Origin: a virus
Direction: 5' to 3' (one strand)
IMG/VR virus record: IMGVR_UViG_3300030103_001002
Location: 426 to 42,746 of that record
Length of the DNA stretch: 42,321 nucleotides
Shown piece after piece: positions 4,047-42,321 of the stretch. The notes under the pieces were generated by a model. That model saw only the letters and a program-made list of their open reading frames with translations, made no database searches and was not told the DNA's origin. The position numbers were made by a program, and so were the translations under genes. How positions within the stretch are numbered: the first letter of the stretch is position 1; each line of letters starts with the position of its first letter.

Positions 4047-7000
4047 TGGGAAAAGGATTTCGCAGACAAGGTGAGTGGCAAGTTGGATTTACTCAACGAA
4101 AAATTGCTGACATCACTAAGAAAAAATTACAAGAAGCAAAACTACTTGAAGCATCTCAAAAAGAAGAGATCAAAAAAAGAGTTGCAAATGCAAACGAACA
4201 AGCACAAGAAGAGCAACGTCAAACAAACAACATTATTAGAGTATCTAATTACGAAGCACAGTTAGCTAGTAACTTTAGTAATACTTTACGAGGTTTGCTT
4301 ACAGATACCATACCTAGTTTAGCTAAAACTCAAATAGCTTATTCTAATGCTCAAGGAGCTGCAGCTAGGATGGAAGAAGAATTAGAAACTCAAAAACCTA
4401 TAGATGATGAAAACGAGTTAGATCCAGATGATCCAGCTGCTGGTAATTTTGGTCTAACAGAGGGTAGAGGTTTTGATGCAGTCAAAGCTGCTGGAGATCA
4501 ACAACTTAGTATTACTAAAACAGGTAATGATTTAGCTACTAAATTAGAAAATAGTAATGATCCATTTGGTAAAGAAAAAGCTAGAAAGGTAAGAGGTATA
4601 TTTTCTGGAGCATATAATTATGGTTATGAGGTTAGAGATAAAGCACTTAAGGTAGAAGGGTTTAGTGCTCATTTTGATAATGAGTTAAGAACAAATAGTA
4701 CTAGATTAGTAGATAATAATGGTGTAGAGTTTGCAATAAATGATGCTAACCTAACTAAAAATCAATTAGCTGTAGCTGGTAACTATATACTAGATCAATG
4801 GAAAGAAGAAAATAGAAGTAATTTAAGTGATGTAAGTGTTGATAAATTACTTATACAACCAGCTAGAAAGGTACTAAAAACTAATTTAAAAGAACGCTTT
4901 ACAGCTCTTGATAATGAGTTTGCTGCTAGTCAAGTTGAAGGTACAAAGCTACTACTTACCAACTCTCTAGATAACGTCCCAGGAGCACCAGAATTATCTG
5001 ACATTCTAAACAGTTACGTTAGTTTAGTCAGACCACATCTTAAGGCAACTAAGGATTCATCTATTGGTAATCAAGCTGTAACACAAATAGAAGATCTTAT
5101 TAAGGATGCTTTTGCTCGTTCTAAAAACCCAGACTTATTACATAAAAGATTGAACTATGCTTTGTCTATAAAAGGTGACACACCTGCAGGATTTAAGAGT
5201 CTAGCAGACTTACACCCAAATAGATTTAGCACTACATCAATTACAATGTTAAAACAGTATGCTGTATCAGAAACTTATAAACGTAGTAAAAGTTTTCAAA
5301 CAGCTAATGTACAAACAAGTGTAACTAACTATATACAAGAACAAAGAGATTTACCTAAAGAAGAAAGAGCAACAGAAAGTGATAAACTAGCTTTTGCTGG
5401 TGAGTTACTTAAGAATAACCCTCTAGCGTCAAAAGATGCTATTGATAATATAAGTAGATTATTTATAGATCCAGTAGATGCTTATGATACAGTAGGTGTT
5501 TTAAAAGGTAAGATAATAGATAACGGTGCGTTAACTGCTGAGGATATACTAGATCCAACACTAGACTCAGATGTAGTCAAAGAATTTTTAGAACAACAAC
5601 CAAATGTACAGGTAGTAGATCAATTATTTCCAGAGTCTGAAAAGAAAGATGTAGAAGATCAGGCTAAATCATTTCAACAATTTTTAGCTAGTAAATCTAA
5701 GGCATACACAATAGATGTATATGGTGATGTACAAGACTCTTCTGGTACATTTGGTATAGCATATACTAGATTTATGTCTGAAATTAAAAATAATGCTTAC
5801 AAAATACAAGCTGCTGCTAAAGGTGAAGGTCAAACCTTAACTTTTGGTGAGGCTTTACGTGAAGCTGATCGTCAGATGAGAGGTCTAATAAATGCAGGTA
5901 TTGCAGATAAAGACAGCATTTACTTTGTAAATACTAATGGAGAAGGTATATATGGTGGTTTTCAAAATGTATTAAATGATAGAGGTTTACCAGCTTTTTA
6001 CAAGCCTGTAAATGTCAAAGACATAATAGCAGAGATTAAGTCAAACGAGTTAACTGTAGAAGATCAGATAACAAATAAGGTAGAGTTGGATGATGGTGGC
6101 ATGCTAACAGATCCAAACGTAGCTCGTATAGCACAGGTAATGAAAGTACCAGAGTATGACTTTTCTAAGTACCAGTCCAAAGCATTTGGTCTTGACTTTG
6201 GTTATGAAGCACCTATAAACTATGAAGCACTAAAAGATTTACTACAAAACTCGGAAGGTGCTAATACTTTATCAGATCTACAGTCTAAGGGTAATACAAG
6301 CGTCAAAGCTATAGATCGTGCATTTAATGATTTCTATGGTCTAAATCATAGAAGTCTTACTAACGCATGGAAAGGTATGAACTTTGAGTCTGTTATTAGA
6401 AATGAAATTACAGCTAAAGGTTTAGAACTTGATGCGGGTGAGTTAGCACTGGTAGATGGTAAGAAACATGTAGGTCATGCTTTAGTAGGTATTACAGATA
6501 AATTTGGTATTGCTAGATCAGATTATGGTATTGGTAATAGTTTAGTACATACAGGTGTTGATATAGGTACAACCTCTACTCCTGGATTTCATACTGCATT
6601 TAATATACAAGACGGTGTAGTTGTTGCTAATGCTAGTCATCCTAAGTATGGTGTATATATTGACATACAAAATAAAGATGGAGTTGTTTATAGATTTGCA
6701 CATCTAAAAAACTACAACCCTGCACTTAAAGTAGGTGCTCCATATAATGGTGAAGTTATAGGTGAAATAGGTAACACAGGTGCAAGTACAAGTGAACATT
6801 TACATTTTGAAAAAATTGTAGATGGTAAACAAATAGATCCTACAGAGGATTTGAACAAGTTGACTATTGGAAAAAGAATTGAACCTACTATTGGTAAATA
6901 TCCAATCACAAAAAGAATGTTAGCACGTCTAGCAGGTGACAAAGGAGAAGAAAATCCAATACGTAATCTAAATATTGCTAAGGCAATACATCGTTATAAA

Positions 7001-39787: not shown

Positions 39788-40864
39788 ATGGCTGCAATTA
39801 CATTATCAAAACCAAATACTAATTGGCAGGAATTTTGTAAGTGGGTAACAAACACAAATAACCGCCTCTACGTGGGGTGGTTTGGTGTGTTAATGATACC
39901 TTGCTTACTAACTGCTACAACATGTTTTATACTCGCCTTTATTGCTGCACCTCCTGTGGACATAGATGGCATACGTGAACCAGTAGCTGGCTCATTACTC
40001 TATGGAAACAACATCATATCTGGAGCGGTCGTACCCTCCTCAAACGCAATCGGACTACATTTCTATCCCATCTGGGAAGCAGCAACACTTGACGAATGGC
40101 TCTATAACGGAGGGCCATACCAGCTCATTATCTTCCACTTCCTTATCGGTGCATTGTCTTACATGGGACGACAATGGGAACTTAGTTATAGATTAGGAAT
40201 GAGACCTTGGATATTTGTTGCTTACTCAGCTCCAGTATCAGCTGCACTAGCAGTGTTTCTCGTCTACCCTTTCGGGCAGGGGAGTTTCAGTGATGGTATG
40301 CCTCTTGGTATTTCTGGTACTTTTAACTTCATGTTTGTATTCCAAGCAGAACATAATATCCTTATGCACCCGTTCCATATGCTCGGTGTTGCTGGGGTAT
40401 TCGGTGGATCTCTTTTCGCTGCTATGCACGGAAGTTTGGTTACTTCCTCGCTTGTTGCAGAAACAACAGAAGAAGTATCTCAGAACTACGGCTATAAGTT
40501 TGGTCAAGAAGACGAGACTTATAACATCGTAGCTGCACACGGTTACTTTGGTAGACTTATTTTTCAATATGCTTCTTTCAATAATTCTCGTGCTTTACAT
40601 TTTTTTCTTGGTGCTTGGCCCGTGGTTGGCATATGGCTCACAAGTATGGGAATCTGCACAATGGCTTTCAATCTTAACGGCTTTAACTTTAACCAGTCAA
40701 TAGTTGACACTAATGGTAAAGTTATTCCTACTTGGGCTGACGTTGTAAACAGACAGAACCTAGGTATGGAAGTAATGCACGAGCGTAACGCTCACAACTT
40801 CCCACTCGATTTAGCAGCAGCTAAGTCTACAAATATTGCACTAACAGTTCCAGAAATTGGTTGA
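39788..40864 (+). CDS. psbA: Photosystem II D1 protein
   Basis: 358 residues, full length. The thylakoid reaction-centre protein that turns over fastest in light; phage copies keep photosynthesis running while host synthesis stops. Landmarks are Tyr160 in LVYPFG (the redox-active tyrosine), His in [12 protein letters not shown] (chlorophyll and iron ligands), and the end [11 protein letters not shown], where the precursor is normally cut, leaving a 14-residue tail ending PEIG. Residue 129 in GRQWEL is Gln, the low-light (D1:1) form. Placement between scaffold and capsid follows the P-SSP7 arrangement. Confidence 0.99.
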
Positions 40865-40953
40865 AAAATTTGTTTTATATTTAACATTAATAACTAATCT
40901 ATTTATATGTTCTGGTGTCTTAAGGCATTGGAACAATTTACCAAAAGATGACA

Positions 40954-41020
40954 CGTCCGTTCATCCTTCGGGACGCATGACACCAAAGCATGGAACGGGG
41001 CTTTGGTACTGAGGTAGGAT
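40954..41020 (+). ncRNA. Candidate glutamine-II riboswitch (Downstream-peptide RNA)
   Basis: CCGTTC (40957-40962) pairs with GAACGG (40993-40998). Inside it lies the hairpin TCC-TTCG-GGA (40964-40973). ACCAAAGC (40982-40989), in the enclosed strand, pairs with GCTTTGGT (41000-41007) downstream, making an H-type pseudoknot. The CGTTCATCC...GGACGCATGA...GGAACGGG backbone, and the position just ahead of a short peptide gene, match my memory of the Downstream-peptide class of cyanobacteria and marine phages, which senses glutamine. The ribosome site GAGGTAGG follows the pseudoknot closely, so ligand binding could control translation. Confidence 0.65.
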
Positions 41021-41021
41021 T

Positions 41022-41129
41022 ATGACTCAAGTAGAACTCCAAGCTCGTGTTAAAGAGCAAAGAGATTACACAAGAGCTATGAAACTTAAGTATCGTGGCA
41101 TCGCTTACATACCAAAATATGAAAAGTAA
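41022..41129 (+). CDS. Short peptide controlled by the riboswitch candidate (35 aa)
   Basis: ATG at 41022, with GAGGTAGG ending a few bases ahead. The peptide has a charged helix (MTQVELQARVKEQRDYTRAM) and then LKYRGIAYIPKYEK, whose L-x-YRG-x-x-Y core matches a short domain of unknown function (DUF4278-like) found in cyanobacteria. Peptides of this kind under glutamine riboswitches can affect nitrogen metabolism in cyanobacteria; that role is inference here. Confidence 0.65.
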   Translation: MTQVELQARVKEQRDYTRAMKLKYRGIAYIPKYEK

Positions 41130-41235
41130 GTTTATAGGGTTGGCATTATTTGCCACCCTTTTTTTATATCTAGAGTGGAAACCCATTCTAACTTATATAG
41201 GAGAAGAGACACCTCAGAGTCGGATCTCTTCTTAA
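41119..41235 (+). CDS. Possible single-span membrane peptide (38 aa)
   Basis: ATG at 41119 within the end of the preceding peptide gene. The sequence MKSKFIGLALFATLFLYLEW is a basic start plus a membrane span, followed by a short polar tail ending in RISS. The reading frame overlaps a hairpin (41203-41231). Could be a real small membrane protein or chance coding in the capsid leader. Confidence 0.4.
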   Translation: MKSKFIGLALFATLFLYLEWKPILTYIGEETPQSRISS

Positions 41236-41280
41236 TTGGCATTTGCCCTCTACGGAGGATACCTTTTGCCGTCATGACGG
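41203..41280 (+). promoter_or_regulatory. Hairpin-rich leader upstream of the major capsid gene
   Basis: Three structures in a row: GAAGAGA/TCTCTTC (41203-41209 with 41225-41231), CCTC-TACG-GAGG with a stable UNCG-type tetraloop (41247-41258), and the perfect 12-base palindrome CCGTCATGACGG (41269-41280). These suggest RNase processing or transcription-stop sites that set capsid mRNA level, as around T7 gene 10. Confidence 0.45.
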
Positions 41281-41374
41281 TGGGATAGACCACACTCAGT
41301 TTAAGTCTTAGCTGATACAATTAAGATTTCTATAAAACTAGATCTAGAAACGATACATATAACCTAACAATATA

Positions 41375-42321
41375 ATGGCACAACAGTCAACAAACAACCC
41401 AGCTTCACAAACCTTTCTGGGTAGAATCAATACAGCGACAAACGCTACAAATAACAGAGACCTTTATTTAAAGTTGTTCTCAGGTGAGATGTTTACTGGA
41501 TTCCAGAGGGAAACAATCGCACGTGATTTAGTCATGAAGCGTACGTTAACCAACGGTAAGAGTTTACAGTTCATCTACACTGGACGCACAAGTGCGGAAT
41601 ACCACACACCTGGCAACAGTATATTAGGAAACTCTGACAAAACTCCACCAGTAGCTGAGAAAACAATTACAGTCGATGACCTATTAATCAGCTCGGCTTT
41701 TGTATATGAGCTAGATGAAACCCTGTCACACTATGAGTTGAGGGGCGAAATTTCCAAGAAGATTGGATATGCTCTTGCTCAAAAATATGACAGATTAATT
41801 TTCAGAGCTATTGCTAAAGGTGCTAGACAGGCTTCTCCAGTATCCCTCAGTGGATTCATAGAGCCAGGTGGTACACAAATTCAAGTTGGTGCAGGTTCTG
41901 ACGCTGACGATGCTCTTGATGATGATAAGTTAGTAACAGCATTTTATGATGCTGCAGCAGCTTTAGATGAAAAAGGAGTTTCTGATGATGGTCGGGTTGC
42001 CGTACTAAACCCACGTCAGTACTATTCACTTATAAAAGGTGCTGGTTCTAACGGACTAATTAACAGAGACGTACAAGGTACATCTTTACAAAGCGGAAAT
42101 GGTGTAATTGAAATTGCAGGTATTCAAATCTACAAGTCAATGAACGCTCCATTCTTCTCTAAGTATGGTACTAAGTATGCCCCTAACTCTGGTGCATCAG
42201 CTGGAACTGACCTTGCTACAGGCGATCCTGGAAATACAGGTTCATTTGTATCTGAGTCAATCGAAACAGCTACAACAGTTACAGGTAACAACTATGGCCC
42301 ACGCCAAAACTACGGTGCTGC
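41375..42321 (+). CDS. Major capsid protein (T7 gp10-like), 3' partial
   Basis: 315 residues visible before the window ends without a stop. The start MAQQSTNNPASQTFLGRINT, then LYLKLFSGEMFTGFQRETIA and RTLTNGKSLQFIYTGRTSAE, follow T7-type HK97-fold capsid proteins; VLNPRQYYSLIKGAGSNGLI and FFSKYGTKYAPNSGASAG continue the match. About 50-60 residues should be missing, judging from usual lengths near 375. The adjacent next genes (tail tubular protein A, start of B) are outside the window. Confidence 0.95.
   Translation, partial: MAQQSTNNPASQTFLGRINTATNATNNRDLYLKLFSGEMFTGFQRETIARDLVMKRTLTNGKSLQFIYTGRTSAEYHTPGNSILGNSDKTPPVAEKTITVDDLLISSAFVYELDETLSHYELRGEISKKIGYALAQKYDRLIFRAIAKGARQASPVSLSGFIEPGGTQIQVGAGSDADDALDDDKLVTAFYDAAAALDEKGVSDDGRVAVLNPRQYYSLIKGAGSNGLINRDVQGTSLQSGNGVIEIAGIQIYKSMNAPFFSKYGTKYAPNSGASAGTDLATGDPGNTGSFVSESIETATTVTGNNYGPRQNYGA

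Follow-up and report, generated by a model that had tools for sequence, protein, structure and literature searches.

A glutamine-II riboswitch and a single-unit YRG microprotein gene upstream of the capsid gene in T7-like cyanophages

The stretch of viral DNA analysed here (the window; 42,321 nucleotides of a viral record of 42,746 bases in total) carries a glutamine-II riboswitch aptamer followed directly by a gene for a 35-residue YRG peptide, and both lie between psbA and the major capsid protein gene. We consider it likely that this RNA is a functional type 2 switch, in which glutamine turns on the translation of a one-unit YRG microprotein that most likely acts on the target of the host YRG proteins. 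PHROG profile matches revealed genes for the portal or T7-type connector, scaffold, hli, psbA and capsid in the window. The connector, scaffold, hli, psbA and capsid genes thus place the source among the T7-like cyanophages, and the phage origin proposed in a first-pass annotation of the sequence holds. No real tRNA or tmRNA was found across the window. The elements around the switch are as follows.

39788..40864, + strand: psbA (photosystem II D1), the upstream neighbour (phrog_182, E 1.6e-191)
40908..40935, + strand: 12-bp hairpin UGUUCUGGUGUC-UUAA-GGCAUUGGAACA, located past the psbA stop and ahead of the aptamer (RNA fold of 40865-41135)
40955..41007, + strand: glutamine-II (type 2 glutamine, Downstream-peptide) riboswitch aptamer (RF01704, 50.0 bits, E 2.5e-9)
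41022..41129, + strand: gene for a 35-aa YRG / DUF4278-like peptide (ORF translation, DUF4278 score, homologues)
41137..41165, + strand: intrinsic terminator-like hairpin plus T-run, 3' of the peptide gene
41375..42319, + strand: major capsid protein gene, which leaves the window at its end (phrog_27239, E 6e-81)

RF01704 was the sole gathering-level Rfam match in the whole window by cmscan (50.0 bits, well above the cut-off of 33), and the match was reproduced in a separate cmscan of 40800-41250. The first-pass annotation had placed a Downstream-peptide RNA at 40954-41020 and had suggested running the covariance models of this class and of the glnA RNA; the search bore out both the class and the position. 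The Glutamine-I (glnA) RNA was rejected, as its Rfam model gave no match in the window or in 40800-41250, and the matches to the L20 leader and STnc390 in the latter stretch (E 1-3) were attributed to chance. The following parts of the aptamer were recognised.

40958..40962, + strand: 5' pseudoknot strand CGUUC, equal to C1-C5 of the crystal numbering (sequence mapped to PMC6698751)
40964..40973, + strand: stem-loop P1, UCC-UUCG-GGA (RF01704 match, covariation)
40974..40976, + strand: linking-strand C17-G18-C19, which belong to the glutamine site of the crystal structure (PMC6698751 mapping)
40982..41007, + strand: second stem (called P2 in PMC6698751), formed by ACCAAAGC and GCUUUGGU around the 3' pseudoknot strand

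Stem 1 pairs U40964-C40966 with G40971-A40973, stem 2 pairs A40982-C40989 with G41000-U41007 (8 pairs), and the 3' pseudoknot strand GAACG lies inside the second stem at 40993-40997. In the crystal structure, glutamine is contacted by C1, G2, G18, C19, C39, G40 and G41 (PMC6698751). When the window was mapped to this structure, all 7 contact nucleotides were found to be kept (C40958, G40959, G40975, C40976, C40996, G40997 and G40998).

When viral contigs were searched with a sequence pattern, at least 120 stretches matched. Five chance matches without T7-like phage genes (L010, L022, L032, L046 and L049) were removed, and the host-like locus L059 was also left out of the phage set. The search pattern had fixed the pseudoknot strands, and the covariation test covers the two stems alone. 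Among the matches listed, 104 of 109 distinct phage aptamers, with 33 distinct 5' strands, kept five or more contiguous pairs in stem 2, compared with 19 on average and 29 at most when strands were swapped between loci (500 trials); as the loci share kinship, 104 of 109 is not a tally of independent events. Stem 1 kept at least 3 pairs in 105 of the 109 listed aptamers against 70 (maximum 77) with swapped strands. The pairing excess of stem 2 is far above the composition-level expectation. Compensatory changes are thus present in the phage homologues, and their absence was the outcome that the first-pass annotation had named as speaking against its assignment.

A gathering-level RF01704 aptamer was present in 15 of 17 T7-like cyanophage regions examined, including P-SSP7, P-SSP2, 9515-10a, S-CBP1 and S-TIP28; these regions were picked by similarity to the window, which makes 15/17 a biased frequency. 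Among the isolate annotations that were checked, none marks the aptamer, and many either omit the YRG ORF or label it hypothetical. In P-SSP7 (L127, 1708-1827), the annotated 39-codon hypothetical PSSP7_028 runs up to the 5' edge of the riboswitch, and the 17-codon YRG ORF behind the riboswitch has no annotation.

The surroundings of the switch were then compared among the matches listed. The downstream neighbour was the major capsid gene in 94 of the 95 loci with enough sequence to test, whereas psbA lay upstream of the riboswitch in 44 of 68. S-TIP28 and MedDCM-OCT-S28-C3 possess the switch and the peptide, with psbA absent from the region examined. The constant psbA linkage of a phage auxiliary photosynthesis cassette was therefore not found in these loci, and the tie to photosynthesis suggested earlier for this locus is weak; the fixed neighbour is the capsid gene. 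No sigma-70 promoter-like site was found around the aptamer on the + strand, and this absence is compatible with transcription of the switch together with psbA. The hairpin at 40908-40935 has no U-run, and the flank TTGGAACAAYTTACCAAAAGATGACACGTC near it is common to locus L094. The terminator-like hairpin after the peptide ORF was seen in 2 of the 121 loci listed (the window phage and one other), so a terminator was rejected as a general feature 3' of the peptide.

The peptide ORF of the window starts 24 nt past the aptamer core and carries the motif KYRGIAY. A YRG ORF follows the aptamer in at least 124 phage loci, and its start lies 22-32 nt (mode 24-25) past the invariant CATGGAACG. Across the 97 distinct phage peptides tabulated among the matches listed, Y-R-G-x-x-Y was invariant, in agreement with the YRG-type peptide of 35 residues recognised at first. 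Meanwhile, pN/pS was 0.21 over 334 pairs of the phage YRG ORFs listed, and the differences at the 1st/2nd/3rd codon positions were 767/672/1477, with the third about twice the first or second. Hence the low pN/pS, the third-position excess and the invariant motif together establish the YRG ORF as a real coding gene. Against Pfam DUF4278 (PF14105, a model of 57 positions), the window peptide with its single YRG unit scored 24.8 bits (E 2.9e-5), below the cut-off of 25.3, and 18 of 36 phage peptides matched at E 0.01 or better. No PDB relative of the phage or host YRG peptide was found at E 10.

In host genomes, the same aptamer stands ahead of YRG proteins among the matches listed, and 19 of 21 host YRG relatives matched DUF4278. 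The host proteins have 33-72 aa and mostly 2-3 units, and one of them, at 33 aa, is as long as the peptide described for Yfr6 (PMC2518516). In contrast, the phage peptides are single-unit and, in the loci listed, fall into two length classes of 13-22 and 29-42 codons, barring two longer outliers. A profile-profile comparison aligned the phage unit to the last host YRG unit (E 2.6e-6). Because the host proteins mostly contain two or three units and the phage peptide contains one, which aligns on the last host unit, the phage peptide is a one-unit version.

The module might be regarded as a host-derived passenger, an inherited riboswitch-peptide cassette whose function is lost, since it is lost or halved in some phages. 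S-B28 has neither aptamer nor YRG ORF in the stretch examined, and in S-SBP1 (L135, about 1770-1940) the 5' half of the aptamer is gone (no CGUUCA, no stem 1) while the YRG ORF is intact. However, covariation and purifying selection extend over highly diverged phages, and the cassette is kept in 15/17 regions that had been selected for their similarity to the window. A functionless passenger is therefore very improbable. S-SBP1 is a natural riboswitch-loss variant. As its peptide is retained without the 5' half of the aptamer, glutamine gating of the peptide is not universal.

The passages of PMC6316151 on this class state that Downstream-peptide aptamers bind L-glutamine, and that a Prochlorococcus copy activates expression on binding. 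By analogy, we infer that the window copy binds glutamine, works in the ON direction and controls translation, for which a candidate ribosome-binding site is available.

41011..41014, + strand: probable Shine-Dalgarno GAGG (sequence; constant aptamer-start spacing in phages)

AGGA at 41016-41019 likewise lies near the start codon, and the constant aptamer-start distance in phages fits translational control. When glutamine is high in the infected cell, the aptamer pseudoknot would close, the ribosome-binding site 4-12 nt past the last stem would become usable, and the YRG microprotein would be translated. The product, a single-unit version of the host riboswitch-controlled DUF4278 proteins, would most likely act on the own target of the host YRG proteins in nitrogen-replete cells. 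It has been proposed in the structural paper that the ligand stabilises the pseudoknot against a competing fold which hides the ribosome-binding site (PMC6698751). In nested folds of 119 leaders, which omit the pseudoknot energy, no anti-Shine-Dalgarno arrangement was found, and the accessibility of the start region was 0.403 in free folds versus 0.409 in aptamer-constrained folds. Sequestration of the Shine-Dalgarno by the aptamer, considered as a candidate, was not visible in these nested folds. As folding did not recover the competing fold, switching at the ribosome-binding site is presumed rather than seen.

We regard the peptide as most likely a nitrogen-state microprotein, while its action on host nitrogen metabolism is put forward tentatively. 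Glutamine synthetase and PII-related proteins, which the first-pass annotation had named as possible binding partners, are hypothetical targets. Another explanation is that the peptide mimics the glutamine synthetase inactivating factors, so that the phage would throttle the host glutamine synthetase at high glutamine. It draws on the host IF17, which bears DUF4278 under glutamine-riboswitch control (PMC6316151), and on the phage peptides themselves, which are rich in arginine/lysine and match DUF4278 in 18/36 cases. However, IF17 has been described as not needing its DUF4278 part to inactivate glutamine synthetase (PMC6316151). The IF17 precedent is therefore weak, and a YRG unit alone is no evidence of an inhibitor. 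A comparison with the NCBIfam models gave no inactivating-factor (IF7/IF17) match to the phage peptide. IF7 and IF17 consist of 65 and 149 aa, and the phage peptides are far shorter. Moreover, the benefit to a phage of throttling nitrogen assimilation is not obvious. Such mimicry is thus quite improbable, and a microprotein acting on the host YRG target is preferred.

BLAST revealed a second strongly conserved noncoding block in the intergenic region, right before the capsid gene. This block and its 5' neighbour are given below.

41202..41232, + strand: hairpin AGAAGAGA-CACCUCAGAGUCGGA-UCUCUUCU with a conserved loop
41236..41296, + strand: pre-capsid RNA, a structured element ahead of the capsid gene (model R1, 82.9 bits; covariation)

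The pre-capsid RNA was present in the window, L127, L128, L131, L137 and about 100 other loci, and 41236-41296 matched no Rfam family. In a four-helix model of 54 distinct sequences, 95.1% of the paired cells were paired, as against 82.0% after shuffling and at most 60% after sliding, the slid comparison being flattering as the model was drawn from the tested sequences. Double changes (88 versus 22 shuffled) and the covariation score (0.316 versus 0.081 in the control) pointed the same way; the shuffling control ignores the kinship of the sequences, and the shuffled and slid controls agree in direction. One helix bears a palindromic 4-nt loop (CUAG, CAUG, UCGA, AUAU, UAUA or CCGG) in nearly all variants. 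This RNA is apparently undescribed and may be a separate RNA family.

Across phages, the 15-nt loop CACCUCAGAGUCGGA of the 41202-41232 hairpin is nearly invariant and its stem is freely variable. In many relatives, the place of this hairpin is taken by one resembling a tRNA T-arm or by a genuine tRNA-Gly. The pre-capsid RNA was preceded by the CACCUCAGAGUCGGA-loop hairpin or close variants in 57 loci listed and by a T-arm-shaped hairpin, to which the former looks unrelated, in 46. Of these 46 listed T-arm loci, 25 have an acceptor-like complement 5 nt or more in length, compared with 10.8 (maximum 18) after swapping. In NATL1A-7 (L137), a true tRNA-Gly at 4240-4310 directly abuts the pre-capsid RNA at 4311-4371. 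A truncated tRNA-like fold (T-arm plus acceptor-like stem) overlaps the YRG stop codon in relatives, for example in P-SSP7 (L127) before 1994. The pre-capsid RNA and the tRNA-like fold probably serve the capsid message as a leader and as a site of RNA processing.

The T-arm-like hairpin starts 5-14 nt past the peptide stop in 39 of 48 loci listed, so terminating ribosomes would contact it. This arrangement, the capsid gene as downstream neighbour in 94/95 loci listed and peptides down to 13 aa would suit a leader-peptide coupling, in which glutamine-gated YRG translation refolds or processes the RNA up to the capsid gene and thereby sets capsid expression in cis. However, selection on the peptide amino acids is strong and goes beyond mere reading, the host copies are located elsewhere, genes intervene before the capsid in 9515-10a, P-SSP10 and NATL1A-7, and in the window a terminator-like hairpin stands between the ORF and the capsid gene. 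We therefore consider coupling in cis unlikely. It is a rather remote prospect that the whole psbA-capsid stretch forms one composite RNA device of riboswitch, YRG ORF, tRNA-like fold and structured RNA. In many relatives, the YRG stop codon would then sit within the tRNA-like fold, abutting the structured RNA that heads the capsid message, and the nutrient state would set capsid mRNA processing and translation.

Riboswitches have been called rare in phages in the part of PMC9004378 that concerns them. Here, a metabolite switch and a microprotein of down to 13 residues are kept in most of the T7-like cyanophage regions examined, including the laboratory models P-SSP7 and S-CBP1. Phage sensing of the host nitrogen status thereby becomes directly testable, and the presence of one rather than two or three YRG units offers a comparative handle on the function of the host riboswitch-controlled DUF4278 peptides.

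Compared with known systems, the window RNA resembles Glutamine-II RF01704 in its two stems, its CGUUC/GAACG pseudoknot, its contact nucleotides and the short YRG ORF directly 3'. The linking strand differs, being mostly CGCAUG in phage copies and CGCAGUUCGA or near it in most host copies. Yfr6 and the other YRG peptides of Prochlorococcus/Synechococcus share the aptamer class, the YRGxxY core and a start spacing like that of the phages, but in phages the YRG gene goes together with the capsid gene, and the host copies are located elsewhere. Yfr6 RNA drops upon nitrogen depletion (PMC1242208). In MED4, phage infection leads to an early increase of Yfr14, which is antisense to Yfr6, and of an RNA antisense to a Yfr6-like gene (PMC2518516), which suggests that the host YRG genes are a contact point during infection. 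The gifB/IF17 system of Synechocystis likewise uses glutamine to activate a small protein with DUF4278, as proposed for the phage (PMC6316151). However, its riboswitch is of type 1, unlike the type 2 of the window, and the part of IF17 that inactivates glutamine synthetase lies outside DUF4278; the phage peptide is too small to hold such a part. Phage-encoded glutamine riboswitches have been noted in T4-like cyanophages, methylophage Melnitz and pelagiphage Mosig, which belong to other phage groups, and the Melnitz copy is glnA RNA-like and sits beside a tmRNA gene; the riboswitch passages of these descriptions do not mention a YRG microprotein before the capsid gene (PMC9964418, PMC9602691, PMC9004378). 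No earlier report of the riboswitch-YRG module in T7-like cyanophages was found in the open-access literature. The window module is the viral counterpart of a switch that had been described in the hosts, and it is widespread and mostly unannotated.
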